Assembly: GCA_903813345.2 (NCBI GenBank)
Contig: CAIIXF020000011.1
Span: 10,264,842-10,328,841, forward strand
Origin: Owenia fusiformis
Taxonomy: Eukaryota > Annelida > Polychaeta > Sabellida > Oweniidae
Direction of reading: 5' to 3'
Length of the DNA: 64,000 nucleotides
Shown here piece after piece: positions 30,101-64,000 of the stretch. The translations under genes and the position numbers were made by a program. The notes under the pieces were generated by a model that was not told the DNA's origin, ran no database searches, and worked only from the letters and a program-made list of their open reading frames with translations. The stretch's first letter is position 1, and every line of letters begins with the position of its first letter.

Positions 30101-33100
30101 ATAACTTCCTAACAGGAAGTCTGATTCGGTTTTGGTTTTCAGATTCAGAATCCTGAGAAAATTTCCCATAAGACTAATATCCTGGATATTTGATTCGAAG
30201 AACTTATTTTTGGACCTCGTTTTCGGACACTGATATCTCGAAATCAGTTTGAGATATCAAAAAACTAAATCGACCCTAGGTTTCCTACTTTTTTATAAGG
30301 AACACAATGAAAAAAACCCGGATCGAAAATATTGAAGGACGACCGAGAAAATCGAAAAAAGTGACAAAGTACTGGATTTGACCTAGTTCTTGACCTTTGA
30401 CCTAGATAAAAATTTGACCCAATTTCCGAGGAACTAGATACTGGACCTAAATTGACCAAATGATTGACTTCACTGAAGACCTTATGGTTATTGAGAAAAC
30501 TGGTTTAGAAAAAGAAGAAGAAGAAGAATAAGAAAACTGACGAAAACAATAGACTCCAGATTTCATCTGGAGTCTAATAATAATAAGAAAACTGACGAAA
30601 ACAATAGACTCCAGATTTTCAATCTGGAGTCTAATAAAGAAGAAGAATACTGGCAAAAACAATAGACTCCAGATTGACATCTGGAGTCTAATAAATATTA
30701 CAAAAAATAAAATAAATAAAAAATAGTGGCCATTTTAGTCTAGTAGGAAGGTATGGTCCCCATGCACCCGAAAGATGTATTTTTTTAATGTACATTTTTG
30801 TAATCCTAAAGGTCCATACTAAAGATTTTTGCATGTTCCCAGAATGAAATATTGTCCCATGGTATCCATTGGCGGCCATCTTGTCGGCCATCTTGAATTT
30901 TTGAAAGAGTTGATGTTAATCATCTCAAAGTATAATAACTTCCACAGTTTTGAGAATTGAAAGCTGTAAGTGGTACCAAAATGAAGCTATTATAGTATCC
31001 TATATTATCAGATGCAATAATTATGCAAATTGTCTCATTTGCATAAAATGTGACGTCATCAATCATAATTCTTGCCTCTTTACAACGGTATCGCATTATA
31101 CCTTTCTGCCTGAGTGATCAGTCTTAGTCATTCATGAACATTAATGATTTTAAATATATAGGTACATTAATTTTGAACATATTTGCAATCGAAAGTTTTG
31201 GAAAAACATTGTCAGACACATGATTATGTTACTGAAAAGGGGCGTGGCACTTCTTGTGAAAGAATTGATGTTAATCATTTCAAAGTACAATAACTTCCAC
31301 AGTTTTGAGAGTTGAAAGCTGTAAGTGGTACCAAACTGAAGGTATCACAATATCCCACATTATAAGATACAATAATTATGTAAATCACCGTATTTGCATG
31401 AAATATGACATCATCAATCATTATTTTTGCCCCTTTTCAACGGTAATACATATTGCATTTCCCTCTGAGTGACCAGTCTTGGTCTCTCATGAATATAAAA
31501 GATATTAAATGTATACATTCATTTTAAACATATTTGCAATTGAAAGCTTGAACATATTTGCATTGAAAGTTTTAGAAAAACATTGTCAGAAACCAAGGTA
31601 TGGCCTTTCAAATGATTATTGTTCTGAAAAGGGGCGTGAAAATCCGTAATGTATTATATAGTCGATGTATCATCTGTAAAATACCCAGGGGTTCACTGAA
31701 TACACAATTCTGTAGTTGTCCCAGGCTGAACCCTAAGATATCACTATGTTCCCATAATCATTATGTTCCCATACCAATCTGTCAAATTTCAATGTGTTCA
31801 CATACCAACCAAAATAATGCCCAAAAGCCATACCAAATATCCAAATATAAGACCAATGCTATACCAAATGTCCAAATATAGGACTAATGCCATACCAAAT
31901 ATCCCAGAAATATAAGACCATTGGAATGCAAAATGTCTAAAGCCCCTGGAAGAAGCAGAACTTTTATGAAAATGAAAACCAACATCAAATTAAGGACATT
32001 TGTAAAAACTAGACCAATCCCATACCATAAGTGAGGGGTAACATATTCTCCATGACCATTCTTGTACCACAAAGTAGAAAAATCTGACCATTCTCAAACC
32101 TCAAAAGTCATAATTAAATGGGGGCATTCTCATTCCAGATCCTAAAATTTGGATCCATTGCCATACCAAATCTTAAAAGAGGAACCCCCTGTCAAGGTTT
32201 ATATAGAGTGAATCCCTCGGGTGTAAAATATAGCTTTTGACTTTTAGAAAGTAGCCCAGTGATGTTCCTTATTCCTAGCTTGTTCAGAAATTCTTGTTGG
32301 TCTGTTTGGCAGACATTTAAATTTCAGCCAAAGATATATAATCTGTATCGCTTTTGGACTAAGTACTATACAGATACGAATGACCACATATCCACACTCA
32401 TATCATTTTAGGATAGGCAATGGACTGAAATGGGTACCCACAATATTTAGTTGTTAAAGCTACATAATTAACTCAATATGTATTAAGCCTCTACCTCAGT
32501 TCAATGTTTTATCCAAGACATCCGACTGGACTCTCGGCTGACTTCTTACAGAAACTCAGTGCTGATGTCAAAACACAAAGGTCCAACATCTTCAATGAGC
32601 TCATGGTACCTTCAGAAGAGTTGACCAATTAAAATATCTGATCAGCTTAAAAATCCAAGACCTGTTTGATGAGGCTAAGACAAGAGGGCGGTATGCAGAT
32701 ATGCACCCAATAGAAGTGGGATGCAGAGCCCAGCCTCTTCACTATGCTACCTCTTGTCCAAGTTAGAACGATTTCAATCCCAGATGCGAGGACAGTGAGT
32801 GGAGGAAACATCTATGAAACACCATTGTGTTGGGCCAAGTAGAATACAAAAGATTCTCTTCGGAAGGAGAGATGAAGCCCACAGTGTTCGTGGACGGCTT
32901 CAACACTGGAAAGTGAAAAGATCAGAGAGCTCCAACAGATGCTTCTTAAGAGATTACTTCATCTTAGAGAAAATCTAAAGAGAAGCGTAGGACCAGGAAG
33001 ACATTCTTTGAAAATCTCTATAGGCTCACATCAAACTTGTTAGGGAACCAAAGAGTGCCCGTATGGCATATACGCAGGATCAAGCAGAAGCAAATACTTT

Positions 33101-48100: not shown

Positions 48101-51100
48101 CAAGACTTTACAGACAAGATTTTAGGATGGAAAATCCAAAATGGCTGCCTTGACATTTACCCAGAATGTCAAAAAACTAATCAGTTCTAGATTTTCATAC
48201 TAAGAATCATCCCTGAAAATTTGAAATTGATCTACCAAACGGTTCACCTGAAAATGCGTAGACAAGACTTTACAGACAAGATTTTAGGACAGAAAATCCA
48301 AAATGGCTGCCTTGACATTTACCCAGAATGCCAAAAAACTAATCAGATCTAGGTTTTCATACTAAGAATCATCCCTGAAAATTTGAAATTGATCTAACAA
48401 ACGGTTCGCCTGGAAATGCGTAGACAAGACTTTACAGACAAGATTTTAGGACGGAAAATCCAAAATGGCTGCCTTGACATTTACCCAGAACGCCAAAAAA
48501 ACTAATCAGATCTAGATTTTCATACTAAGAATCATCCCTGAAAATTTGAAATTGATCTACCAAACGGTTCACCTGGAAATGCGTAGACAAGACTTTACAG
48601 ACAAGATTTTAGGACGGAAAATCCAAAATGGCTGCCTTGACATTTACCCAGAACGCCAAAAAACTAATCAGATCTAGATTTTCATACTAAGATTCATCCC
48701 TGAAAGTTTGAAATTGATCTACCAAACGGTTCACCTGAAAACGTGTAGACAAGACTTTACAGACAAGATTTTAGGACGGAAAAAACCAAAATGGCCGACA
48801 ATAAAAAAGTGATTATGAGTTTTTGCTGATTTCCTTTTACAAAATTATCACATATAACTACTGTTAACAATAACATAGGCTTTTTCAACAAAGTACACCT
48901 GGAATTATTTATAAAGCTACTAAATATTTAAAGTATGAAAACTCAAAAACACCATTCAATATGATACAAAGTATTATCGCGCGCTAACTTTTCTTCAGAC
49001 ATTCAAAATGGCTGACATGACTGGGCTAACAGGTCCAAAACCTAATCAGATGTAGAATGAAGTGAGCTGAACAAGATGTTAAAGTTTTAAAAGCAACTGT
49101 GAAGCCGTTTTTCTTAAAGTTTGCAGACAAGGATTTTAGCATTTGACCTCAAAATGGCCGACAGGAAGTAGCTATCGAGTTAATTTTTTTTCATCCACAT
49201 CTGTATGCACTCACAAGTTATTCCTGAAAATTTGAAGGTGATACCTGTAGCGGTTTTGGAGAAAACTGCCGGACGTACGGACGGACAGACAGACAGACAA
49301 ACAACCAGACAGACAGACGGACGGACGCGCCTAGGACGACAATATGGCCCCACACTATGTGGTGGGGACATAAAAAGGTGATATGGGAACTTGTCAGGTT
49401 TATTCATATTTTGGTATGCAAAGTTGGCAACATTCAAGTTAAATATGTCATAAATATTTAAGATTCTAAGATCTTTCAATAAAGGGGCAGCATGAGCTAA
49501 CTTACTAGAATTTGTTATTAACCTGGCAAATTTCTTCTGGAGTATATGTAGAGGCTTGAGGAGTTTTTTATCAGCATTACCCCAAATTATATTACAGTAA
49601 TCAAGCCCTGAATGAATAAGAGCATTATAAATTTTCATTTTCGAACAGTTGTCAAGTAAGTGCTTAGAAGTATATAATATGTGTATAATTTTAGCTATTT
49701 TCCCTTTTAGTTTTTGAGTGTGAAGTTTCCAATTTAGTTTGTCATCGATTAGGACACCAAGAAAATTAATGTTATCCTTCCTTGTAATATTTTTGTCATC
49801 AATTTTTATCTTGATTTCTTCAGGGTTATATGTTCCTCTTTTAGGTGAAAAGAATAAAAAATTAGTCTTTTCAATATTAAGTGATAACTTGTTAGCCATG
49901 AACCAGTCATTGACTTTTTTAAGTTCATTATTTGCAACAGATATGACTTCCCTGCATGGGTTTAATTATCAAGATATAACTTGAGATGGACATCTATAGC
50001 TGGTCACTGCTTGTTAGCTTGAGAATGACTTTGTTCTTTTTTCTTCTACAATTTGGTATTTATTCTGCTTGTTAGCCTTGCCCAAGTCGGTCTCTTTTAC
50101 TTATCTTGATTTCTATTATGACTGCCTTGTACCCAAGAGAAAGCCACATGCTTAACCGACCCAATCTTTATGTCGGTAAAAGTTGATTAATCAACGACAG
50201 CCCTGTAGAGTTAGCTCATTATTATGCACGGTCAAAAACAAGTACACTTTTCACCGGGACTTTTCACGAACAAATCTTGCACGAATTCATCATGAAAATA
50301 CAAATATTTTATCAGATAAATATCAATCAGAGTTTAGTGGATGCCGGAGCATCGATTGGATAACCGGAGGTGATAAGATTGAAACAATAAACGTTGAAAC
50401 GATCGCTGAATTCAAATGATCGAACATGTAGGCTGAGATTGAATCACTGATCGACGACTGAATGACCCGCTACATTTTCATTTCAAGTCGTAGACGGGAG
50501 GTTTGCCTTGTTTATGCAGCTCAACCTGATAACGTTTTGATTGGTCAATCAGCCTGAAGTCACATGTCGTGTCGTCCACGCGATCTGTCAATCAATAAGG
50601 TTTCGCGATACCCCTGATAGCGTAGCTATTATGGAAATCTCGAAACCGTTGAATATCTCAGCATAATATCAGCGGAGATGTATTGGATTGTACAAGGAGG
50701 TAATAATTCAAGATCAGATTAGTAAAAAAATACCGACTTGGGCAAGGCTATCCGCTTGTCATTTCATGAGTTATTTTATTCCTAACCATGTGGCACCTCA
50801 CTAATGTGCTATATCATATCACTGTGTCCTGTGTTTGGCTGAACTGATGGACAGATAGAGTCGTTCTCTATATCCTCCCAACTTTGTCTAATGGGATAAA
50901 TGTAGGATGGCTATCTTGTGTTTTGATTGGCCAGATTGAAAAGTATCATGCCTAACAATATGTGTGAATATCATTTACCACATTCTAACTTACATGTAAA
51001 AGACCTAGTTGAGTGGCTGTAATAGGGTGGGACATCTCCAGGTCATAGGCACTGAGAGCCTTGCCCCACTTGTCTTCATGCTCATATGTTCTGATCCTGA

Positions 51101-54100
51101 GAAAAGATGGCACTGACATCAGTAAACATGCATGAGATGTCACATGAGAATTCTCTTAACATTTAAATGTGCTATCACACATCTTCCCATATTTTAGTCG
51201 ATGTTTGCGCATGTATTACTATGAATATACAACTTAAGACATTATAGTTAGTTTTCTTGGGAAACATGCTACACTGGATGTTTTATTACATAGAGTTATA
51301 TTTTCCCACATAGTTGTAAAAGTTGTAATTAAAAACACTCCTGTATTACATTGGGGCTTTTCTGATGATTACCTGGCAGATGTCTCAGCTAGCCTACCAG
51401 CCCCACAGCCATAGACACCATCAGGATCCCCTACACACTTGTAGGCCTCCAATAGTAGGGCCTGTACACTAATACCTCCCTGCAGAGAGGAAAGAGACTC
51501 CAGGGATGTCCCTGCATTCTCACTGCCCTGTGATATCGACCTACTGGAACCCCCCTCACTGCTGGACCCACTTTCTTCTCTGAATACAAGAGAAACAAGA
51601 GAAAAAATTTAAGAACATTGCACATGAATACTACTGAAACAAACTAGAAAATGGGAACTCCACAGAGTAGCAAATCTCAACGAACTGCACTATAACATAT
51701 ATAAATCTGTATTTGTAACAATGTAATATTTACCATCTACTCTTCCCTTGAAATATAATTGGTAGATCTTAAAATACATGTACATACATTAGAGATATAT
51801 CAGAATTTCCAGGCAGCCATTTTGAATTTTCTGAGGCACAAATCACAAAAACAATATGATAATTGTGATCTACCCCATATTTCCTTCAATTTGAGTATAA
51901 CATAACCATACTTTGAAGAGATCAGAAAATTATTGAACAATCCCACATAAGTTGGCCATTTTGAATTAACGAGGCTTAAATGAGAAAAATGATACTATAT
52001 GTGTATTCTACATTAAATTACCTTTCATTTGAGTATATTAAAGCTATATTTCAGAAAGATCTCAATATTAACGCAAATTCCTTATGGCAGCCATTTTTAA
52101 AGCGGTGACCATCTTGAAAGCTTTCCACCAATTTTGAAGCAAAACCATCTACTAGATATAGTATTTGAGTTATCTTCCGGATGGATTGACTGAGGGACGG
52201 ACTGACTGATGGACAGAGGGCTTCACTATATCCCTACCGAAATGTGTTCGTTGGGAAAATGAGAATTTCTGCTAAATCATATGACTAAATAATTCCTTTA
52301 TCATACAGATGACACATTTCACGTTACATTTTATTGAACATGATCTTAAAGAAATATGACATTTATGCTGAGTAATGTGCAGCCTTACCGATATACGAGG
52401 GGTGATCCAAAAATCTTGGACGCCCCGCTCTAACTTTGCTATTTTTCAATATAATTACATGAAACTTTCAGATAGTAAAGATCAACATCTTAACAACTTT
52501 GTGTTTAAATTTTTCTTGCCGCTTTACCCATGAATGGAAGACATTTATGAAACCACCATTGCTTATGTGATACAAATGTTCCTTGAGTGCCAATCTAAAC
52601 CTCATCCAATGAGTAAAAACATTTTCTTTCAACCCTCTACTCCTTTCAGAAAAGAAAATTACACCGAGTCATATCCAGACTGTATCGCGCAGATGGGAGC
52701 TGCTCAAGGTCAATAATAGTGTGAACATTTTGTAGTATTCTTTGTTTCACTTTGATTTCTTTCATCTTCTCCATTTCAGCAGCCATCTTGGAGCAAAAAT
52801 GATACCAGAATGAGGGTTGCTTGTCTGATGTCATTTTCTTAGAATTTGACATATACGGCCATTGTCATATGTGACATTATAATTAAAACAAAATTAATTG
52901 GTTCCCTGGTAACAAAGGAAGTAAACTAACATGGTTAGATATTCAAAATTAAAAGGAAGATAGTGGTTAAAATTTGCGAAACAAGTCATATGGCGGCAAC
53001 ATTTAAGGCTGAAAGTTGCCATATGCGAATACCGTTCCGGGTAGCAGGGTCCTGTAATTTTATCGAAAACCAACAAAATTAGAGCAGGGCGTCCAAGACT
53101 TTTGGATCACCCCTCATATACAGCAAAGTGATTTGCTGATCAATTTATGTGCAGGTAGAGAAGTAGTTTGTTGAGTTATGTACAGCTTGGGCTACTTGAA
53201 TATAGTCACTGACTGTTCACTTACCCACATATACAGCAATGTATTTCAGTATACAGTAAGGCAGAGAAGTGATTTGTTGAGTTATATGCAGCTTGGGCTA
53301 CTTGAATATAGTCATTGACTGTTCACTTACCCACATATACAGCAATGTATTTCAGTATACAGTAAGGCAGAGAAGTGATTTGTTGAGTTATATGCAGCTT
53401 GGGCTACTTGAATATAGTCATTGTTCACTTACCCACATATACAGCAATGTATTTCAGTATACAGTAAGGCAGAGAAGTGATTTGTTGAGTTATATGCAGC
53501 TTGGGCTACTTGAATATAGTCATTGTTCACTTACCCACATATACAGCAATGTATTTCAGTATACAGTAAGGCAGAGAAGTGATTTGTTGAGTTATATGCA
53601 GCTTGGGCTACTTGAATATAGTCATTGACTGTTCACTTACCCACATATACAGCAATGTATTTCAGTATACAGTAAGGCAGAGAAGTGATTTGTTGAGTTA
53701 TATGCAGCTTGGGCTACTTGAATATAGTCATTGACTGTTCACTTACCCACATATACAGCAATGTATTTCAGTATACAGTAAGGCAGAGAAGTGATTTGTT
53801 GAGTTATATGCAGCTTGGGCTACTTGAATATAGTCATTGTTCACTTACCCACATATACAGCAATGTATTTCAGTATACAGTAAGGCAGAGAAGTGATTTG
53901 TTGAGTTATGTGCAGCTTGGGCTACTTGAATATAGTCATTGACTGTTCACTTACCCACATATACAGCAATGTATTTCAGTATACAGTAAGGCAGAGAAGT
54001 GATTTGTTGAGTTATGTGCAGCCTGGGCTAGTTGTAAATAGTTGATATCCAACCAGAAGTTGTTCTCCCAAGCTGTCTGGCTTACTTTCCTATAACAATG

Positions 54101-57100: not shown

Positions 57101-60100
57101 AACTTCTGAAAAGGGGATGGATATTGAAATGCCATTGGGAAATGGCGATGATAGGTCAAATAGGCATTATGGATATGCATAAAATGAATGTGGATATGAC
57201 TCAATCTGAATGGCAGTTTTAATTTGTGCGGCCAATGTTGACGGACGGACGGACCAACGGACGGACGCCTGGTCGATCCCATAGGCTCACTGTGTGAGCC
57301 AAAAACATAAAATAACACACGTAAAAATGGTGGCCATTTTCAAAATGGCTGTCTTCATGTCAAAGTGTCATAAAGCAGTGTGCCATGCATATAAGTATTC
57401 ACATATCAAATAAGAACAAAGTTTCTCCTCTAGTTTTCAAGTTACAGCAAAAATCGTGAAATATTGTTTAAAGGCAGCCATTTCTCAAGGTGGCAGCCAT
57501 TCATTTTTCAATATCTACATTTCTAGCTTTATTAATGTCCTAAATAACTTTTTCACATTTAAAGCATTGCTGCTATTATTGTACCTAAATGACTGTAAAA
57601 TCGGCACTAAAATAGCCACCATTTTTATATGAGCGGCCATTTTAAAATTGGCCTATGATTCCAGCTCCGGTTGGAGACCACAGTAGAATTTTCATAGGTG
57701 GCCATTATAACATTTAACCCTGTATCTTATTAACGATCAGTATCCAAGCCTAGTGCAACATACCACAGTGTTCGGGAGAGACTCGCCTAGCCTGCTATAA
57801 CAATCTTACCATGGGTTGTCCACTGAATTTTTGAAATAAATAAACTTGAAGACACTAATCCCCTCTATCGTCAGATTTCTCAGAGAATTCTGGTAAAATC
57901 ACCAAGGTCAAAATCACTCCGCCGTCAGCTTAAAATGAGATTTCCCACTGAACTCTGACATGTTTTCAGATAAATTAGGACCTACCTTATAAATATTTAG
58001 TCCCGATTCACTTCCAAAATGCCAGATGGCGCTCCAATGGGGTAGGGAAGGAGTAAATGACTTTTTATTCAGAAAACCAAATCACTAACGGTAACCGCTA
58101 ATGTCCTTACTCAGGACTATATCCTAATAGTAAACTGAATTAGTTTGTTTTCTTCCAACATGGTTATATTAGCATTGTAGGCATTATCCCGATCACAATG
58201 GTATATAACAATGCTACATTTGAGAAAATGCACGGAGGAAGATTCAATCCTTATAGACACAGGTCCTTTTAGCAAAATCCAGGAAATTTGATTTTGAGAT
58301 TTCTTGAAATTTCTTTGGGGTAGGGGTACACCTTACAGATTGCATCACAGATTGAGTTCACCTAACTGAGGTGAACATGTCCATATGGGGTATCATTGGA
58401 AAGCGATTTCTACTATCTTTCAAGTAATATCCATGCCAAGGCGTTCGATTGCATCTTATGACATCATAACGGTAGGAAGAAACAAAGGTTCATTCAAAAC
58501 TGCCCCGAAAACAATTGAATGGCACGGGAGAATGGAATTCGGGTACTTGGCACAGTGGCCTCAACCCAAAAACACCAAAGTTGCTTCAAAATGTTACGAT
58601 TTTGGTACCATTGTTCAGCTAAAATACAGCCCATATGATATGCGCTATTAGGCTTCTCAGTGAACTAAAAAACCTCAAAAAGGGATAAAACCTTCAAAAT
58701 GCCCCAAAAAAGCGCCTTCTAATAGGTTGGAGACCACAGTAGAGTTTCCCATAGGTGGCCATTATAACATTTTACCCTGTATCTTATTAACAATTAGTAT
58801 CCAAGCCTAGTGCAACATACCACAGTGTTCGGGAGAGACTCGCCTAGCCTGCTATAACAATCTTACCATGGGTTGTCCACCGAATTTTTGAAATAAATAA
58901 ACTTGAAGACACTAATCCCCTCTATCGTCAGATTTCTCAGAGAATTCTGGTAAAATCACCAAGGTCAAAATCACTCCGCCGCCAGCTTAAAATGAGATTT
59001 CCCACTGAACTCTGACATGTTTTCAGATAAATTAGGACCTACCTTATATTTAAATATTTAGTCCCGATTCACTTCCCAAACGCCAGATGGCGCTCCAATG
59101 GGGTAGGGAAGGAGAAAATGACTTTTTATTCAGAAAACCAAATCACTAACGGTAACCGCTAATGTCCTTACTCAGGACTATATCCTCCATAGGGCATATG
59201 TGTACAAAAACAAAATGGTATTTCAGTAATCACCCGGGCAGACGTACAGATGGACAGAGGTGTTCTCTTTATACCTCTGAATGATTTATCTTTACAGCAA
59301 TATATAATACATGGCATGGTTTAACATATATAATATGATACTCATCTTTAAACTTGTGTATTGGTTTTTTGGCCCACCATGTATATATCTTGTATCAATT
59401 AAATGATTATAAATATAACTATTCATTCTTTAAGTAATTTTTCATTTTGCTTCCTGAATCAATTCTTTTTTCGTTCAGCGCTACAAAAAAATCATCCCTA
59501 TGGTATCAGCATCACAAATAAAGCCATGCCTACTCAAGCAACTATCTTTGACAGGTTCAACAAGTGAGTGGCGAGTACTGACATTCGAGTTGCACCACTA
59601 ATGAATTCCCCTTGGCACTTGTACAGTACTAATACTGGCACGAGTGACAATTCACAACTAATGAAATGTATGTACCTTAACTTTACAAACATTGGTTAAA
59701 TGTTGCAAGATGCCATCAGTGACAGCAGTACTCTCAATGAGTGATGTGACAAGTGTTATCAACCATGTGTTATGGTCATCATGACCAGGGCACCAGAGAT
59801 CAAGGTCATCAATGCACTTAAGGAACTTCTCATCATTCACCTCCTGCTGGCTGCTACCAATAACCTACAAAACAGTAAAGCAACAATTAATAGGACAAAA
59901 ATATAATTGTTTTATCCAATGAGATCATTTTGATGAGTGCAGCGAATAGTATTTCTACTACAATCCAATTAAGACTCGATGATTATATTATTACAGTGCG
60001 AGCAAGCAATCTTACTGAGGCCTTAGTAGGCATTTTTGACAATTTGAAGTTCAGCCAAAGGACTGTAAAAGTGGAAACTTTGCCAACTTTTTTCATTGTG

Positions 60101-61549
60101 TATCTCCATAGAGGAGAGAAATGCAATATAAAATAGTATTCGATATTTTGAATCATTTTCGAGATATCCATGTTCTAAAAGTAGGTCAACCAAAAAGTTC
60201 TCCAAAGTCAAGGTTTGAGGTGTCAAAATTATAGGATATCTATATCAATTTCTTTGTTTTAGCAATAACTGTACTATAATTGCATATTTTTTTTAAGACT
60301 GTGTACCAATAAAGAATAGGCTTATATAATATAACAAGAACACAAATGTGTACAAAATGTCCCAACCTATGGGTGATCCCGTCAAATGGTTATCCTAAAA
60401 ATGAGTGGACAAGACTTTACCGACACAATTTGAGGATGGAAAATTCAAAATGGCCACTTTAAAATAGTCAGTTCTAGATTTTCATACTTAGAACCACCCC
60501 TGAAAATTTGAAATTGATCCGTCACACAGTTAACCAGAAAACATGTAAACAAAACTTTATAGACAAGATTTGAGGACAGAAAATCCAAAATGACTGCCTT
60601 GACATTTATCCAGAATGCCAAAAAACTAATCTGTTCTAGATTTTCATACTAAGAATCATCCCTGAAAATTTGAAATTGATCTACCAAACGGTTCACCTGA
60701 AAACGCGTAGACAAGACTTTACAGACAAGATTTTAGTATGGAAAAAACCAAAATGGCAGACAATAAAAAAGTGATTATGAGTTTTTGCTGATTTCATTTT
60801 ACAAAATTATCACATATAACTACTATTAACAATAACATAGGCTTTTACAACAAAGTACACCTGAAATTATTTATAAAGCTACTAAATAGTTAAAGTATCA
60901 AAACTCAAAAACACCATTTAATATGATACAAAGTATTATAGCGCGCTTACTTTTCTTAAGACATTCAAAATGGCTGACATGACTGAGCTAACAGGTCCAA
61001 AACCTAATAAGATGTAGAATGAAGTGAGCTGAACAAGATGTTAAAGTTTTAAAAGCAACTGTGAAGCCATTTTTCGGACAAGTTTGCGGACAAGGATTTT
61101 AGCATTTGACCTCAAAATGGCCGACAGGAAGTAGCTATCGAGTTAATTTCTTTTCATCCACATCTTTATGCATTCACAAGTTATTCCTGAAAATTTGAAG
61201 GTGATACCTGTAGCGGTCTTGGAGAAAACTGCCGGACGTACTGATGGACAGACAGACAACCAGACAACCAGACGGACGGACGCGCCTAGGACGACAATAT
61301 GGCCTCACACTATGTGGTGGGGACATAAAAACTAAAAAAAAATGGCATCTTGAGTCTGAAATTGAAATTCAATTTCCGATGTCTAGTTATTCATAGCAGA
61401 CACATTATACTGTACCTTTTTCTTACTGGTACGGAATGGATACAGATAGTTGAAGAGATAGTCTTGGATGTTCTGTTTGTAGCTTGCTGCAAACTTTGCA
61501 CCAGCCTGAGTGGCCAGTAGAGCCTTCAATACAGCACTTGATGCAACCA
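3047..61549 (-). CDS. ATM: ATM serine/threonine kinase, internal part (14 exons, incomplete at both ends)
   Basis: This is the host gene of the window. ATM is a nuclear PI3K-related kinase that is activated by MRN at DNA double-strand breaks and phosphorylates SQ/TQ sites. Fourteen minus-strand exons translate in order into a protein that follows vertebrate ATM from about human residue 1730 to 2440 (numbering from memory). Landmarks include PFRTSKKK (human PFRTSRKK), YGCGAG, RTYEHEDKWGKAL (human [13 protein letters not shown]), GNWLAET and FSDTQYQSI. Exons are, 5' to 3': 61549-61416, 59864-59676, 54684-54519, 54405-54303, 54089-53955, 51579-51373, 51096-50994, 45343-45195, 44763-44662, 44527-44326, 44216-44085, 42241-42083, 11484-11285, 3187-3047. 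Every junction codon is consistent, so the gene looks intact and expressed. The part seen is alpha-solenoid and FAT domain; the kinase and FATC lie left of the window. Introns range from about 110 bp to 30.6 kb and are full of repeats. Confidence 0.96.
3508..4150. mobile_element. Mariner-type hairpin MITE
   Basis: The ends are CAGGGTGTCCCGAAAGTA and its near-complement TACTTTCGGGACACTCTG, flanked by TA on both sides, as expected for Tc1/mariner insertions. The two halves are complementary over about 250 bp each, with a spacer of about 140 bp, so the element can fold into one long hairpin. There is no transposase. Confidence 0.82.
4968..5060. repeat. GAATATCAC palindrome cluster
   Basis: GAAACCATCGAATATCAC and CAAACCATAGAATATCAC are followed by the inverted forms GTGATATTCGATAG and GTGATATTCGATGGTTTG. 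The four copies of the motif make a cruciform-prone hairpin. Confidence 0.7.
5100..5510. repeat. Dispersed inverted-repeat element, copy 1
   Basis: The segment contains GGATATCCTATGATTTATGA, a TTATTCCATA-type boundary, and CTTCAGACTC/GAGTCTGAAG-related sequence. An inverted relative lies at 45675-46125, about 40 kb away. No coding capacity. Confidence 0.65.
5528..8290. repeat. Cluster of palindromes sharing a GACCGAAGG-type loop
   Basis: At least six long palindromes lie here, for example 5528-5629, about 6008-6084, 6589-6700, 6993-7155, about 7540-7620 and about 8185-8275. Each has its own arm sequence but a loop of the form GGGACCGAAGG or GGGACCTGCGGCCCTCGG. Segments 6302-6580 and 6709-6990 are direct repeats of each other, joined by a palindrome. 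Boundaries often contain GGATAAATAAGGG or TTATTCCATA. I see no gene in this stretch. Confidence 0.7.
7285..7510. repeat. Minisatellite of about 58 bp, four copies
   Basis: The unit contains AATACGCTCCAATACGATTT, then a (C/G)GGGGACAATACG stretch and ATTTTTTCATGT. Four copies are nearly identical. Confidence 0.85.
8291..9060. other. Unique intron sequence
   Basis: I see no gene, tandem repeat or clear element in this stretch of the intron between exons 13 and 14. Confidence 0.5.
9068..9975. mobile_element. Foldback element with mariner-like right end
   Basis: The stretch around 9090-9400 is complementary to about 9460-9760 (for example GATGCCTTGGACACCTGCTC against GAGCAGGTGTCCAAGGCATC). The right arm is partly duplicated (9720-9920). 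The right end reads TTAACACCCTGTATAT, a mariner-like terminus. No ORF of note. Confidence 0.7.
10062..10250. repeat. GGTACC palindrome array
   Basis: About ten GGTACC hexamers plus near variants lie in 190 bp, mostly within the self-complementary TACGGTACCGTA, separated by 5-20 bp of other sequence. Confidence 0.9.
10845..10995. repeat. Cluster of AAATCAGCGCTAA-type inverted motifs
   Basis: AAATCAGCGCTAA, GCGCTGATTTAGCACTGATT, TTAGCGCTAATAAATCAG and AAATCAGCACTAA occur in both orientations within 150 bp. The function is unknown. Confidence 0.65.
11285..11484 (-). CDS. ATM: ATM exon 13 of this window (FAT domain)
   Basis: The exon encodes AKDVDKSAALLYPLALGIYG, then GNWLAETRSENPTVIMDQYL and ALDAYLSLA, aligning with human [21 protein letters not shown] and MKAFLSLAR. 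It follows exon 12 directly with no residues missing relative to human, so no exon appears to be hidden in the 30.6-kb intron. The acceptor is TTTTTAG|GCTAAA and the donor GCAAG|GTGAAA. Confidence 0.96.
11574..13422. mobile_element. Mariner-like MITE interrupted by another element
   Basis: The termini are CAGGGTGGTCAAAAAAAATG and its complement CATTTTTTTGACCACCCTG, flanked by TA. The right arm (about 13258-13422) pairs with a left arm that is split in two: 11574-11625 and about 12905-13015. The gap is filled by the element at 11650-12906. The centre, 13015-13258, is single-copy. Confidence 0.78.
11650..12906. mobile_element. Nonautonomous element nested in the mariner-like MITE
   Basis: The ends are inverted: GCTCACATGGTG at 11651 and CACCATGTGAGC at 12894. 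The body is made of three or four diverged repeats of about 330 bp (for example TTTGTAAAGCTAGGAAATGG) and ends in a GACGGACAGACAG tract. A related end, GGCTCACTGTGTGAGCC, is at 57285. The ORFs inside are repeat-derived and match no family I know. Confidence 0.7.
13590..13786. mobile_element. Small inverted-repeat element
   Basis: ATTGGCCCCCACGTGAT at the left pairs with ATCATGTGGGGGCCAAT at the right with one mismatch, over about 200 bp. No target duplication is clear. Confidence 0.55.
13990..14957. other. Unique intron sequence
   Basis: No gene is seen. A short CAGGGTTAATCATACACC-type terminus near 14059, followed by CCCTGACATTTCCAGG, resembles sequence at 41820-41960, so small repeat fragments are present. 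Confidence 0.45.
14966..17252. mobile_element. hAT-like nonautonomous element, long copy
   Basis: CCCGGGGGGTTCACTGT at the left and CAGTGAACCCCCCGG at the right are inverted. The 8-bp GTTTGAAG is duplicated on both sides (14958-14965 and 17253-17260). An 8-bp duplication suggests the hAT superfamily. The interior repeats CCATACCAAATGTC-type phrases and holds a pogo-like MITE at 15906. A short relative is at 31684-32221. Confidence 0.75.
15906..16775. mobile_element. Tc1/pogo-like MITE nested in the hAT-like element
   Basis: The termini CAGTAGAACCTGCTAAGTGG and its complement CCACTTACACAGGTTCTACTG are flanked by TA. Repeated AAGTGGAACACCTC phrases lie just inside both ends. There is no transposase. 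Confidence 0.8.
17298..30690. repeat. Composite macrosatellite, eight units
   Basis: Units begin near 17298, 19009, 20515, 22206, 23495, 25206, 26685 and 28625, mostly with CTAGACTTTGGAAATTGAAC. Order inside a unit: a head hairpin; GAGTCATCCAGAATAAG repeats; a purine tract of GGATAG/GGAAGGA; one to seven subrepeats of about 110 bp containing CATAACTTCCGAACCGGAAG; a CATATCTCAAAAGTGGGTC block; TGACCTAG-rich blocks; and a tail hairpin AGACTCCAGAT...ATCTGGAGTCT. Units 1 and 5 (about 1.71 kb each) share an extra GACCTGGACTTGGAC block, so there are two unit types. All ORFs here are shadows of repeats. It sits in the 30.6-kb ATM intron. Confidence 0.9.
31684..32221. mobile_element. hAT-like MITE, short copy
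   Basis: This is the compact relative of the element at 14966-17252, starting CCAGGGGTTCACTGAAT and ending AGTGAATCCCTCGG. TGTAAAAT(A) is duplicated at 31675 and 32222. Inside are ATACCAAATATCC-type repeats. Confidence 0.75.
32480..34450 (+). pseudogene. R2-like non-LTR reverse transcriptase remnant
   Basis: Plus-strand pieces in shifting frames resemble the R2-type RT family. In order they are: PFDQSDFKLDEVRTIIRKAY (32.2 kb region end to 33.25 kb); AERCFIPKE near 33310; KGIVADCTVSVVLFVTSMNL at 33717-33776; YRAFMDDITVMTS at 33838-33876, carrying the catalytic FMDD; MANWTCMKLK; LVDGKLSPMQFKINGKQIPT after a frame change; and a late TANCSKC with a downstream histidine, like the R2 C-terminal zinc knuckle. 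Several stops and frameshifts show it is dead. It has no homology to ATM and sits inside giant foldback 1. Confidence 0.75.
35051..35692. mobile_element. Mariner MITE in the right arm of foldback 1
   Basis: The ends are CAAGGGTCGATCAAAAAGTT and the complement AACTTTTTGATCGGCCCTTG with TA on both sides. The arms are complementary over about 190 bp (ACCGTTGGCTCT...AGAGCCAACGGT). It splits a subrepeat of the foldback, so it is younger than that element. Confidence 0.85.
36770..37085. repeat. Dispersed repeat fragment with GAGCAGAGG phrases
   Basis: CTTGAGCAGAGGTCCTT and CTTGAGCAGAGGCCCT precede ATTTGAGTTATCACC and a GACAGATGGACAGATG tail. The same phrases recur near 46915-47060 and 52130-52230, so this is a family of unknown type. 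Confidence 0.6.
37239..41582. mobile_element. Giant foldback element 2
   Basis: The left end TAGGTAGTAAGCTAGCACCC is exactly inverted at the right end. By eye the arms appear identical over about the first 190 bp and remain similar for over 1 kb (37239-38460 against about 40150-41582). Each arm has about three subrepeats with AAAGTGGGCGTCGCCCCC and GTCAGTGTCAAAGAACATAC. The 1.7-kb centre has no recognisable gene. A run of about 24 C lies at 40875. Confidence 0.82.
42083..42241 (-). CDS. ATM: ATM exon 12 of this window (FAT domain)
   Basis: Fifty-three codons, phase 0. It encodes VGERCMALLRETEREELGVV, then WSWRLEEARLYWARQE and ends NLLQKLEQ. Human ATM has LPERAIFQIKQ, SEWQLEEAQVFWAKKE and QMIKKLD. 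The acceptor is TTATAAG|GTTGGG and the donor GAACAG|GTACAT. The intron that follows in the transcript is about 30.6 kb and holds the macrosatellite and both giant foldbacks. Confidence 0.96.
42250..42640. other. Unique intron sequence
   Basis: Intron between exons 11 and 12; I see no gene or clear element here. Confidence 0.45.
42643..42780. repeat. 16-bp minisatellite, about eight copies
   Basis: The unit CTCATCCCCTGGACAA alternates with TTCATCCCCTAGACAA. Confidence 0.88.
43040..43185. repeat. Short inverted repeat
   Basis: TCAGAAGACAACACAATC and AATACCTCACTTTTGTTA at the left are inverted as TAACAAAAGTGAGGTATT and GATTCTGTTGTCTTCTGA at the right, over about 145 bp. It is probably a small MITE. 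The remainder to 44084 shows nothing I recognise. Confidence 0.65.
44085..44216 (-). CDS. ATM: ATM exon 11 of this window (FAT domain)
   Basis: Forty-four codons, phase 0 at both ends. It encodes VMITRSVLLRVCHQQRPRDV and ends LEKQACFARQASRLQ, aligning with human IMALRTVILEILMEKEM and HLVELSILARTFKNTQ. The acceptor is TGTTTAG|GTTATG and the donor CTTCAG|GTAAAC. Confidence 0.94.
44326..44527 (-). CDS. ATM: ATM exon 10 of this window (FAT domain)
   Basis: The exon encodes HSAICALGQGSMESARCLYS, later FNVLGTNQLLQQWKQQ and MNDYEFLEE. This aligns with the human stretch that runs through [38 protein letters not shown]. Identity is lower than in neighbouring exons, but length, order and phase agree. 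The acceptor is TTTTTCAG|ACACAG and the donor GAAGAG|GTACAC. Confidence 0.92.
44662..44763 (-). CDS. ATM: ATM exon 9 of this window (FAT domain)
   Basis: The exon encodes LDEKCGFNEGMYSSLCAILD and QSRFHTAIDMT, aligning with human [20 protein letters not shown]. The acceptor is ATTTCAG|ATTAGA and the donor ACTAG|GTCAGT. The junction with exon 10 makes arginine. Both flanking introns are short (134 and 431 bp); the longer one contains a hAT-like MITE. Confidence 0.93.
44869..45078. mobile_element. Short MITE with CAGGCCCGTAGCCAGG ends
   Basis: CAGGCCCGTAGCCAGG at the left pairs with CCTGGCTACGGGCCTG at the right. GTCTT is duplicated at 44864-44868 and 45079-45083. The interior has G- and C-runs. 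The terminus is reminiscent of widespread hAT-like MITEs, though a 5-bp duplication does not fit hAT well. It lies in the short intron between exons 8 and 9. Confidence 0.8.
45195..45343 (-). CDS. ATM: ATM exon 8 of this window (FAT domain)
   Basis: The exon encodes SLQKFGVSHVLETYLQGL, then EIQHFQYETSWKNCNW, aligning with human ALQNLGLCHILSVYLKGL and ELEELHYQAAWRNMQW. The acceptor is GTTTAAG|TCC and the donor AGCAG|GTTGGT. The partial AG is completed by A of exon 9 to arginine. Confidence 0.95.
45675..46125. repeat. Dispersed inverted-repeat element, copy 2
   Basis: This is an inverted relative of 5100-5510: it reads CTTCAGACTCAAAACGAGGC and ATCCTATGATTTACTCGTGA where the other has the complement. 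Ends contain TTATTCCATA/TATGGAATAA and TCATAGGATA. The middle is palindromic around the TCGCTACACTC region. Confidence 0.65.
46130..47640. repeat. Intron with diverged CAGCCATTTT-type repeats
   Basis: Phrases such as GGCAGCCATTTTTGG, TTTCCAGTTAAAGTAAAAT and CTTGAGCAGAGCTCC recur at 51780-52260 and 57310-57660. They mark an old dispersed family. A TGTTATGTTATGTTAT microsatellite lies near 47450. No gene is seen. Confidence 0.5.
47660..49960 (-). pseudogene. LINE reverse transcriptase 3' fragment, split by an inserted element
   Basis: The right part (49375-49960) encodes NDWFMANKLSLNIEKTNFLF, then NFLGVLIDDKLNWKLH and NALIHSGLDYCNIIWG, the classic RT thumb motifs of jockey/CR1-type LINEs. The left part (about 47660-47876) continues with HDHETRNKDRIR, GEKSIKVELSRVWNGV, the usual ORF C-terminus. 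Between them lies the element at 47877-49374, and the frame is compatible across it. The fragment is 5'-truncated, typical of LINEs, and runs in the same direction as ATM. Confidence 0.82.
47877..49374. mobile_element. Nonautonomous element A, copy 1 (inserted in the LINE)
   Basis: It begins AACAAGAACACAAATGTG and ends GGTGGGGACATAAAA. Just inside the start, TATGTCCCCACC is the complement of GGTGGGGACATA at the end. Inside are about six repeats of about 162 bp (GACAAGACTTTACAGACAAG; AATCCAAAATGGCTGCC), a unique part, and a GACGGACAGACAG tract before the end. Confidence 0.8.
50076..50747. mobile_element. Inverted-repeat element with CCTTGCCCAAGTCGGT ends
   Basis: CCTTGCCCAAGTCGGT at 50076 is exactly inverted at 50732-50747, with looser similarity for another 20-30 bp inward. 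The 78-codon plus-strand ORF inside has no family signature I know. Confidence 0.75.
50994..51096 (-). CDS. ATM: ATM exon 7 of this window (FAT domain)
   Basis: The exon encodes IRTYEHEDKWGKALSAYDLE and ends TATQLGLLH, aligning with human [20 protein letters not shown] and TRQAGIIQ. It is one of the best conserved stretches in the window. The acceptor is TTCTCAG|GATCAG and the donor TTACAT|GTAAGT, ending in phase 0. Confidence 0.96.
51373..51579 (-). CDS. ATM: ATM exon 6 of this window, with the SQ-bearing loop before FAT
   Basis: The exon starts with a serine- and glycine-rich stretch (EESGSSSEGGSSRS) that holds an SQ pair in SISQGSEN. It continues through GGISVQALLLEAYKCVGD to PDGVYGCGAGRLAET, matching human GISLQDLLLEIYRSIGE and PDSLYGCGGGKMLQP. 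In human ATM the same loop carries the autophosphorylation serine 1981 in EEGSQST. The SQ here is in the equivalent loop, so it is a plausible counterpart; this is inference from position. The acceptor is TATTCAG|AGAAGA and the donor GCCAG|GTAATC. Confidence 0.95.
51620..52390. repeat. Intron with dispersed CAGCCATTTT repeat
   Basis: Contains three CAGCCATTTT/GGCCATTTTGAATT phrases and ends in a GACTGATGGACAGAGG tail, the same family as at 36770 and 46900. No gene. Confidence 0.55.
52396..53116. mobile_element. Mariner-type MITE
   Basis: CGAGGGGTGATCCAAAAATC at the left pairs with GACTTTTGGATCACCCCTCA at the right, flanked by TA on each side. GGACGCCCCGCTCTAA is also inverted at the other end. 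No transposase is readable. Confidence 0.83.
53152..53954 (-). repeat. Tandem array of the 3' part of ATM exon 5 with its splice donor
   Basis: Units of 102 or 106 bp run head to tail. On the minus strand each reads YIQVAQAAYNSTNHFSALLY, TEIHCCIC and then the donor GTAAGT, the exon 5 sequence. Donors (GTAAGT) end at 53224, 53330, 53432, 53534, 53640, 53746, 53848 and, for the genuine exon, 53954. A weaker partial copy without donor lies at 53152-53212. The 4-bp GACT presence or absence makes the two lengths. Copies are nearly identical, so the amplification is recent. Read without splicing, each copy meets TAA at its donor. Confidence 0.93.
53955..54089 (-). CDS. ATM: ATM exon 5 of this window, parent of the exon array
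   Basis: The exon encodes KVSQTAWENNFWLDINYLQL, then AQAAHNSTNHFSALLYTEI, aligning with human FNDAFWLDLNYLEVAKVA and AAHFTALLYAEI. The acceptor is GTTATAG|GAAAGT and the donor ATGTGG|GTAAGT. Its last two bases plus the first base of exon 6 make glycine. Directly downstream in the transcript come seven further copies of the 3' part of this exon, each with its own donor. The copies lack the NNFWLD segment and the true acceptor, so this is the only complete copy. Confidence 0.94.
54303..54405 (-). CDS. ATM: ATM exon 4 of this window
   Basis: This short exon encodes STRKGGVCMNKRSVRTLLSV and VQYLRTQDRPKQ, aligning with human [24 protein letters not shown]. The acceptor is TTTTCTAG|CATCTT. The donor AAAA|GTAATA is weak but gives the correct phase: AA plus G of exon 5 makes lysine. 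It is found by homology and phase and is too short to stand out as an ORF. Confidence 0.92.
54519..54684 (-). CDS. ATM: ATM exon 3 of this window
   Basis: The exon encodes VAFCEMVLPFLIHNILQ, matching human TDFCQTVLPYLIHDILL, then SSQMRHFFSQHCSRSEE and VTTPQPC (human HVQGFFTSCLRHFSQ and STTPANL). The acceptor is TTGTCAG|GTAGCC and the donor CTTGTT|GTAAGT. One base is left over and is completed by exon 4 to a serine codon. Confidence 0.95.
54700..55270. other. Intron with short ACAATGAGAAA repeats
   Basis: AGGAGTTGTCATAA and ACAATGAGAAAT phrases are repeated between 54680 and 55230, partly next to the exon 3 acceptor. Nothing coding is seen. Confidence 0.5.
55270..57010. repeat. GACCTTT/AGGTCA-rich repeat with an inverted-repeat insert
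   Basis: Repeats of about 110-130 bp carry GACCTTTTTGACC, GAAGGTCAAATCT and TAGATGATTTTGAA (55270-56020 and 56930-57010). Between them, about 56180-56340 is roughly inverted at 56760-56885 (AGAAGGACACAACTATTTAT against a related ATTCTGGTTGTGATC form), suggesting a separate hairpin element. The block ends at 57230-57300 in GACGGACGGACGGACC and GGCTCACTGTGTGAGCC. Confidence 0.6.
57310..57660. repeat. Dispersed GGCCATTTT repeat
   Basis: Contains GGTGGCCATTTTCAAAATGG, GGCAGCCATTTCTC and related phrases shared with 46500-46800. No gene. Confidence 0.5.
57668..58135. repeat. Long direct repeat, copy 1
   Basis: About 465 bp, from GGTTGGAGACCACAGTAGA to CTCAGGACTATATCCT. It matches 58725-59186 almost completely in the same orientation. 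No TG...CA ends, primer site or tract is visible, so I do not call it an LTR. Confidence 0.88.
58136..58724. other. Spacer between the two direct repeats
   Basis: About 590 bp, containing an 88-codon plus-strand ORF (58385-58651) without recognisable domains. With one repeat copy the whole has the structure of a tandem duplication of about 1056 bp, or of a nonautonomous element with direct ends. Confidence 0.5.
58725..59186. repeat. Long direct repeat, copy 2
   Basis: Near-identical to 57668-58135. Small differences include a few substitutions and a short TATTTA insertion near 59047. The similarity indicates a young duplication. Confidence 0.88.
59676..59864 (-). CDS. ATM: ATM exon 2 of this window
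   Basis: This exon has 63 codons, phase 0 at both ends. It encodes VIGSSQQEVNDEKF and then DDLDLWCPGHDDHNTW, aligning with human LDDINLWIPLSENHDIW, and ends ILQHLTNVCKVK (human ILQLLKPMCEVK). The acceptor is TTTTGTAG|GTTATT and the donor is GTTAAG|GTACAT. It belongs to the helical solenoid just before the FAT domain. Confidence 0.95.
60333..61330. mobile_element. Nonautonomous element A, copy 2
   Basis: Same ends and orientation as 47877-49374 (AACAAGAACACAAATGTG to GGTGGGGACATAAAA), but only about three of the 162-bp internal repeats. The unique 3' part is about 95% alike by eye. It lies in the ATM intron between exons 1 and 2. Confidence 0.82.
61350..61395 (-). repeat. Isolated copy of the macrosatellite head motif
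   Basis: On the minus strand this reads AATAACTAGAC, GGAAATTGAA, CAATTTCAGACTC, matching the first 45 bp of each macrosatellite unit at 17.3-30.7 kb. It directly follows element A copy 2. Confidence 0.7.
61416..61549 (-). CDS. ATM: ATM exon 1 of this window (solenoid)
   Basis: The exon encodes VASSAVLKALLATQAG and ends NYLYPFRTSKKK, matching human RSAAVTCLKNILATKTG and YLQPFRTSRKK. The donor is AAAAAG|GTACAG, phase 0. The acceptor is ambiguous. GAGACAG|TGG puts the start at 61549, while TTTGTAG|TGTTGAG puts it at 61560 and adds V-E-T in the same frame; both give the right phase. The acceptor region is also the source or relative of the 33-bp minisatellite that begins immediately upstream, so many copies of similar acceptor sequence precede it in the transcript. 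Confidence 0.93.
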
Positions 61550-61560
61550 CTGTCTCAACA

Positions 61561-64000
61561 CTACAAACAGATATTGCACTATATCAACACTTCAAACATA
61601 AGCTACAACTACTGTCTCAACACGACAAACATAAGATACAACTACTGTCTCAATACTACAAACATAAGCTACAACCACTGTCTCGACACTACAAACATAA
61701 GATACAACTACTGTCTCAATACTACAAACATAAGATACAACCACTATTTCAACACTACAAACAAAACATAAGATACAACCACTGTCTGAACACTACAAAC
61801 ATAAGATACAACTACTGTCTCAACACTACAAACAAAACATAAGATACAACCACTGTCTGAACACTACAAACATAAGATACAACTACTGTCTGAACACTAC
61901 AAACATAAGATACAACCACTGTCTCAACACTGCAAACAGAAGATACAACCACTGTCTCAACACTTCAAACATAAGATACAACCACTGTCTCAACACTACA
62001 AACATAAGATACAACCACTATTTCAACACTACAAACATAAGATACAACCACTGTCTCAACACTTCAAACATAAGATACAACCACTGTCTCAACACTTCAA
62101 ACATAAGATACAACCACTGTCTCAACACTACAAACATAAGATACAACCACTGTCTCAACACTACAAACATAAGATACAACTACTGTCTCAACACTGCAAA
62201 CAGAAGATACAACCACTATTTCAACACTGCAAACAGAAGATACAACTACTATTTCAACACTTCAAACATAAGATACAACTACTGTCTCAACACTACAAAC
62301 ATAAGATACAACTACTATTTCAACACTTCAAACATAAGATACAACCACTGTCTCAACATTACAAACATAAGATACGACCACTGTCTCAACACTACAAACA
62401 GAAGATACAACCACTGTCTCAACACTACAAACATAAGATACAACCACTGTCTCAACACTGCAAACAGAAGATACAACCACTATTTCAACACTACAAACAA
62501 AACATAAGATACAACCACTGTCTCAACACTACAAACAGAAGATACAACCACTGTCTCAACACTACAAACATAAGATACAACCACTGTCTCAACACTGCAA
62601 ACAGAAGATACAACCACTATTTCAACACTACAAACAAAACATAAGATACAACCACTATTTCAACACTACAAACAAAACATAAGATACAACTACTGTCTCA
62701 ACATTACAAACATAAGATACAACCACTGTCTCAACACTTCAAACATAAGCTACAACTACTGTCTCAACACTACAAACATAAGCTACAACTACTGTCTCAA
62801 TACTACAAACATAAGCTACAACCACTGTCTCGACACTACAAACATAAGATACAACTACTGTCTCAATACTACAAACATAAGATACAACCACTATTTCAAC
62901 ACTACAAACAAAACATAAGATACAACCACTGTCTGAACACTACAAACATAAGATACAACTACTGTCTCAACACTACAAACATAAGATACAACTACTGTCT
63001 CAACACTACAAACATAAGATACAACTACTGTCTCAACACTACAAACATAAGATACAACTACTGTCTCAACACTACAAACATAAGATACAACTACTGTCTC
63101 AACACTACAAACATAAGATTCAACTACTGTCTCAACACTACAAACATAAGATACAACCACTGTCTCAACACTACAAACATAAGATACAACTACTGTCTCA
63201 ACACTACAAACATAAGATACAACTACTGTCTCAACACTGCAAACAGAAGATACAACCACTGTCTCAACACTTCAAACATAAGATACAACCACTATTTGAA
63301 CACTACAAACATAAGATACAACCACTGTCTCAACACTACAAACATAAGATACAACTACTGTCTCAACACTTCAAACATAAGATACAACCACTGTCTCAAC
63401 ACTTCAAACATAAGATACAACCACTGTCTCAACACTACAAACAGAAGATACAACCACTGTCTCAACACTACAAACATAACATACAACTACTGTCTCAACA
63501 CTACAAACATAAGATACAACCACTATTTCAACACTTCAAACATAAGATACAACCACTGTCTGAACACTACAAACATAAGATACAACTACTATTTCAACAC
63601 TTCAAACATAAGCTACAACCACTGTCTCAACACTACAAACATAAGATAAAACCACTGTCTCAACACTACAAACATAAGATACAACCACTGTCTCGACACT
63701 ACAAACATAAGATACAACTACTATTTCAACACTACAAACATAAGATACAACCACTGTCTCAACACTACAAACATAAGATACAACTACTGTCTCAACACTT
63801 CAAACATAAGATACAACCACTATTTCAACACTACAAACATAAGATACAACCACTGTCTCAACACTACAAACATAAGATACAACTACTGTCTCAACACTTC
63901 AAACATAAGATACAACCACTGTCTCAACACTTCAAACATAAGATACAACCACTGTCTCAACACTTCAAACATAAGATACAACCACTGTCTGAACACTACA
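61561..64000. repeat. 33-bp minisatellite built on the exon 1 acceptor region
   Basis: At least about 70 units of 33 bp, some 38 bp with an extra AAAAC, run to the window edge. In gene orientation the unit is CTTATGTTTGTAG, TGTTGAGACAG, TGGTTGTAT. Exon 1 starts with the same TTTGTAGTGTTGAGACAGTG followed by GTTGCATC. Variants include CTGTCTC/TATTTC and ACAAAC/TTCAAAC. A block of about 200 bp starting at 61602 recurs at 62749. The true length is unknown because the array leaves the window. Confidence 0.94.

Follow-up and report, generated by a model that had tools for sequence, protein, structure and literature searches.

Tandem repeats that span exon-intron boundaries have been described in lancelets, where they were named 'mirages' (PMC3087553, PMC3902484), and the structure reported here is of a type for which a name and published work exist. 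The lancelet globin genes carry units of 150-160 bp (BflGb6) and 157 bp (BflGb9). The repeats have homogenised interiors and divergent edges, two haplotypes with 6 and 3 units are described, units of 10-72 bp are cited for Adh3, and splicing is reported to be undisturbed (PMC3087553). Boundary repeats of 60 and 108 bp are described for lancelet PGBD5, and troponin C is cited as well (PMC3902484). Here we describe an array of this kind in the ATM gene on a 64,000-nucleotide window (the whole stretch of DNA that was analysed, positions 10264842-10328841 of contig C11) of a 498-Mb assembly of 525 contigs. The array is very probably a mirage, that is, a minisatellite spanning the end of an ATM exon, in which the first donor is used, the other donors leave with the intron, and the repeat has no function of its own.

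The ATM gene lies on the minus strand, and the exon that bears the array (54089-53955, 135 nt) is followed by GTAAGT at 53954, the first of eight such donors. Tandem Repeats Finder (TRF) places the array at 53153-54042, with a period of 106, 8.5 copies, 96% matches and a score of 1612, far above chance. Each unit consists of the last 88 nt of the exon (54042-53955) plus 14-18 nt of intron and is thus 102 or 106 bp long. The eight minus-strand GTAAGT donors, at 53954, 53848, 53746, 53640, 53534, 53432, 53330 and 53224, span 730 nt; a 4-bp indel accounts for their two spacings, 106 and 102 nt. Seven complete units (c1-c7, 53954-53225) of 106, 102, 106, 106, 102, 102 and 106 bp each open with a donor (53954 to 53330), and the eighth donor (53224) opens a degenerate last copy (c8, 53224-53117). 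GTAAGT closes the exon and all seven complete copies, and c8 has no donor at its end. A sequence-only reading of this DNA had identified the repeat as the 3' portion of an ATM exon with its donor, copied seven further times downstream of the genuine exon so that eight equal 5' splice sites lie within 730 nt; the anatomy, the match to ATM and the eight identical sites bear this out. The array very probably originated by tandem duplication of the exon end along with its 5' splice site, and unequal exchange or conversion would have kept it homogeneous.

The copies fall into two interspersed classes (c3, c4 and c7 are identical, as are c2, c5 and c6), and c1 has one private change. The exon differs from its first copy at four sites within 54042-54023 and is identical to it thereafter, from 54022 to 53944. 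All four differences fall in the first 21 of the 88 aligned positions, which has a chance of 0.0026 if differences are uniform, with a cut chosen afterwards. Since the identity extends from 54022 to 53944, homogenisation of the array seems to include the exon's coding end, and divergence is limited to the beginning of the repeated stretch, which reads LQL in the exon and IQV in the copies. The suggestion that array and exon no longer homogenise fully seems to apply to that beginning and not to the coding end. Likewise, the contrast drawn between YIQVAQAAY in the copies and YLQLAQAAH in the exon is accurate for the AAY ending of six of the seven complete copies, but the copy next to the exon ends in AAH as the exon does.

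The array is confined to this locus as far as the searches extend. A dispersed repeat family was considered and rejected: the strong matches to the unit in the window all lie within the array, followed by one of just 16 bp at 1032. A search of the whole genome, in which only the best candidates were scored, returned five matches, all of them in this array. The unit pattern had no match in viral_contigs, and Rfam and tRNA scans of the window gave none.

The ATM array resembles the lancelet mirages in its boundary-spanning unit, in the presence of a splice signal in the copies, and in its homogenised interior and divergent edges, and the unit lengths reported for lancelets (10-72, 60, 108 and 150-160 bp) bracket its 102/106 bp. 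It differs in gene and host, ATM in an annelid-like genome as opposed to Adh3, BflGb6, BflGb9, troponin C and PGBD5 in lancelets, and whereas length polymorphism and RNA are known for some of the lancelet cases, the ATM array is known from the sequence of a single assembly. Minisatellite-type repeats have also been found at exon-intron boundaries in duplicated genes of humans (De Grassi and Ciccarelli 2009, PMC2812944). The ATM array shares their type and location, but those repeats are reported to alter the coding sequence of recent paralogues or to give them new introns, whereas the ATM array sits inside an existing intron of a conserved gene. Intron gain by tandem duplication, as in potato RdRp (PMC4974935), likewise involves duplicated coding DNA in which splice sites are present or arise; the ATM array makes no new intron, and its units lie inside an existing one. 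A literature search judged on titles and the openings of abstracts, with partial coverage, found no annelid or mollusc case of such a structure.

Could the real exon end elsewhere, so that the repeat is not an exon end at all? Beyond the residues EIHC the array exon aligns poorly to human ATM, which would fit such an arrangement. The repeated part, however, encodes well-conserved ATM sequence (YLQLAQAAHNSTNHFSALLYTEIH), GTAAGT follows it in frame, and splicing to 51579 would leave the reading frame open, which together make a different exon end exceedingly unlikely. The predicted splice product around the array, made from this exon and its neighbours, matches human ATM residues 1836-2028 at an E-value of 2e-36. 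Other exons match residues 1786-1834 upstream and 2032-2065 and 2068-2110 downstream, in the order of the gene. The identity of the gene thus rests on exons matching human ATM within residues 1786-2110, and a Pfam scan of the predicted 240-residue piece gave no match. The array exon corresponds to about residues 1921-1966, deep in the gene, so that the earlier label 'exon 5' was right in assigning an ATM exon and arbitrary in its number.

Only the first of the eight donors gives an open junction to 51579. Donors 1 to 8 would produce exons of 135, 241, 343, 449, 555, 657, 759 and 865 nt, and from each of donors 2-8 the reading is ...HCCICG*, with TAA straight after the split glycine codon. The claim that any donor but the first adds an in-frame TAA was thus correct, as the stop comes one codon past the exon for all seven later donors. 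Identical donors do not differ in strength, so the choice between them must depend on position. Donor 1, which adjoins the unique part of the exon, would then be the one used because the spliceosome defines a short exon of 135 nt and not one of 241-865 nt. Exon definition, which favours short exons, predicts this choice. Donors 2-8 would be removed together with the intron, and any transcript spliced from one of them would hit TAA at once and be lost to nonsense-mediated decay. Several points weigh against this reading. The use of donor 1 is something that we infer from the layout of the sites. There is minigene work in which the intron-proximal of two strong donors reportedly wins, which would predict a later donor. 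In addition, the named mirages come from lancelets, and the host genome here is likely, though not proven, to be that of an annelid; a lancelet range is no part of mirage anatomy. Factors bound beside competing donors have been reported to shift the choice between them (PMC5585400).

The recurrence of such repeats elsewhere in the same genome is more interesting than the ATM case itself. A survey pool was formed from exon matches of myosin heads (92 rows) and of the dynein domain AAA_6 (88 rows), with 144 kinase rows left out, and direct repeats overlapping the exon matches were sought in 40 stretches (265,530 bases) that hold 154 of the 180 rows, or 308 edges. The stretches were picked by gene, regardless of repeats; twelve of the 154 rows come from a single group of duplicated myosin exons, and another row, the second site at L041, is a copy within a repeat. 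Boundary-spanning direct repeats occur at 8 of the 308 edges, two of them borderline. Counting the real site in each case, a dynein exon at L029 has seven donors in a 30-bp unit, and a myosin exon at L020 has four in a 34-bp unit that shares only ACAG with the exon, a borderline case. On the acceptor side, myosin exons have five acceptors in a 61-bp unit (L026) and 41 acceptor-like copies in a 32-bp unit (L016; 16 by a stricter pattern). A dynein exon at L041 has eleven in a 37-bp unit, and two acceptors each occur at the second L041 site, at L018 and at L035, where the copies are only 71% identical and the case is again borderline. The L016 array (L016:2721-4116) precedes its exon, comprises 44 copies by TRF, and matches TTTYAGATN at the acceptor in 41 of them; a further array 3' of an exon at this locus begins past the donor and was dropped from the count.

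At L029 (L029:3252-3464) the end of the dynein exon is repeated with seven GTAAGT donors, and the extension stays open up to the seventh, with donors 2-6 adding multiples of 30 nt that encode repeats of the LKLGESPFGK type. In the other surveyed cases one extra unit shifts the frame, as the unit length is not divisible by three. It is reasonably likely, then, that mirages are no lancelet peculiarity: several per cent of exons in this annelid-like genome would carry tandem donors or acceptors among which the exon-adjacent site must win, while donors 2-6 of L029 would add an open, in-frame repeat of 10 residues (LKLGESPFGK and variants).

Repeats between what look like whole exons at L008, L009, L031 and L037 were set aside and are uncounted as mirages. 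L009 (G000:C9:37986009-37994334) holds twelve tandem myosin-head exon matches of roughly equal profile range, from positions 18-30 to 80-84, upstream of more myosin exons; these probably form a large set of mutually exclusive exons. L031 (G000:C9:7082562-7087388) holds three dynein AAA_6 exon matches of almost equal profile range (56-59 to 157-164), the first two of which are 72.5% identical in DNA, and these are possible alternative exons. A tandem array at G000:C1:2575189-2576699, with a spacing of about 52 bp and a unit that is open to ...EINYFIKEFE before GGTAAGT, is a candidate donor mirage.

The survey bears on another claim of the sequence-only reading, that copy number could tune ATM output. 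In such a scheme the donors would divert a fixed share of transcripts into the TAA and decay, so that more copies would yield less ATM; eight identical donors, all but the first followed by an immediate stop, are what one might expect of it. Yet nothing was found that ties copy number to output, the same anatomy recurs at unrelated myosin and dynein exons, and the lancelet mirages are reported to be regularly spliced (PMC3087553). Nor are arrays enriched where a splicing device would be placed. TRF arrays with a period of at least 15 cover 5 true exon edges of the 308 (six by raw count, which includes the 3' array at L016), compared with 1,724 of 20,000 non-hit positions drawn at random from the same loci; of the hit-free bases there, 9.3% lie inside arrays. 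The figure for the edges is lowered by profile-hit edges that may end short of the true exon end. Enrichment at exon edges was therefore rejected, arrays being rarer there than in noncoding DNA. A genome-wide excess of tandem GGTAAGT was rejected as well: three copies separated by gaps of 20-50 nt gave 1,158 matches (675 plus 483) against 1,239 (559 plus 680) for the reversed pattern, counts of matches of which there are many per array. Since neither test showed an excess, there is no sign of a device directed at splice sites, and we regard dosage tuning as very improbable. The boundary repeats look like ordinary minisatellites that straddle exon edges by chance and have been partly purged. 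Minisatellites may arise anywhere in this minisatellite-rich genome, and the ATM array would be one of several that came to span a boundary. Because exon definition would pick the exon-adjacent site, boundary minisatellites could persist without a function. Most likely, then, splice-site repeats of this kind are a side effect of DNA repetition that the genome tolerates rather than a control device, and the array is probably neutral for ATM.

The number of copies given here is that of one assembly, and tandem repeats are prone to mis-assembly; in lancelets, drafts disagree on the copy number of BflGb6 (PMC3087553) and PGBD5 (PMC3902484). It might be asked whether the ATM array arose in assembly, from only one or a few copies in the animal. 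The copies differ in an orderly way, with two interspersed length classes, a private change in c1 and a degenerate c8, the array is shorter than 1 kb, and similar arrays occur at several other exons, all of which make an artefact very improbable.

Such repeats matter beyond ATM. Choice among identical splice sites is usually studied in artificial minigenes, and a genome whose conserved genes carry as many as eight copies of a donor edge, or about 41 of an acceptor edge, would allow exon definition to be tested in vivo by long-read RNA sequencing alone. A mirage-rich genome would, if the reading is true, offer a natural collection of splice sites that are identical and compete with one another. 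It also carries a warning for annotation, since the copies may be mistaken for exons by gene predictors, as is reported for lancelet PGBD5 (PMC3902484).

The exons around the array, all on the minus strand, differ in one respect from the earlier account, in which 'exon 4' directly preceded 'exon 5'. The preceding exon at 54684-54519 (donor GTAAGT at 54518) is separated from the array exon by an overlooked one at 54405-54303 (MNKRSVRTLLSVVQYLRTQDRPKQK; donor GTAATA at 54302). The next exon spans 51579-51373, with its acceptor before 51579, as had been stated, and donor GTAATC at 51372. The human ATM exon limits presumably lie at c.5674/5675, c.5762/5763, c.5918/5919 and c.6095/6096, with phases 1, 2, 2 and 2 that equal those of the four junctions here, and we take the human exon c.5763-5918 to share both end phases with the array exon. 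A literature search found no paper naming these limits. Ten of eleven stretches around other ATM exons or candidates, a set that excludes the array exon, matched only themselves in the window; the eleventh (60010-60260, a candidate exon only) resembles the 133-bp satellite of this window, whose unit has a diverged relative near 60140-60220.

On its intron side, the degenerate c8 abuts a 721-bp element (52396-53116, unstranded) with inverted ends identical at 57 of 66 positions and TA on both flanks, presumably Tc1/mariner-like to judge from its ends. A Pfam scan of its 66-residue open reading frame (ORF), the only one scanned, gave a single match, below the cut-off. Beyond the element, a stretch at 52360-52393 on the minus strand (TATCGGTAAG then GCTGCACATTACTCA) resembles the unit with a deletion and is a possible remnant of a further copy. 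With anchoring, 2 of 5000 random 34-mers scored as high, in a test devised after the match was seen; without anchoring the signal is weak, as 27 and 15 of 1000 shuffles and 27 and 20 of 1000 random stretches score as well.

Elsewhere in the genome, searches for GFP and mollusc haemocyanin gave no matches, and no control matched either; GFP genes are many in lancelets. PF16915, the annelid erythrocruorin-linker family, has three matches over the cut-off within 15 kb on C6, one with an internal stop. A PDB search with one exon returned 'Hemoglobin linker 1' first, at a weak E-value of 0.023, and an unrelated protein next, at 0.028. The L006 locus also holds an exon read by eye as LDLa-like. On this evidence an annelid host is likely. 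Within the window, a minus-strand ORF of 261 residues at 49183-49965 had no Pfam match, and by eye it resembles the end of a long interspersed nuclear element (LINE) reverse transcriptase. Tandem arrays with units of 133, 19 and 23 bp form recurring blocks at 17535-30163, and a 33-bp satellite of about 74 copies with strong GC skew runs from 61540 to 64000 and past the end of the window.
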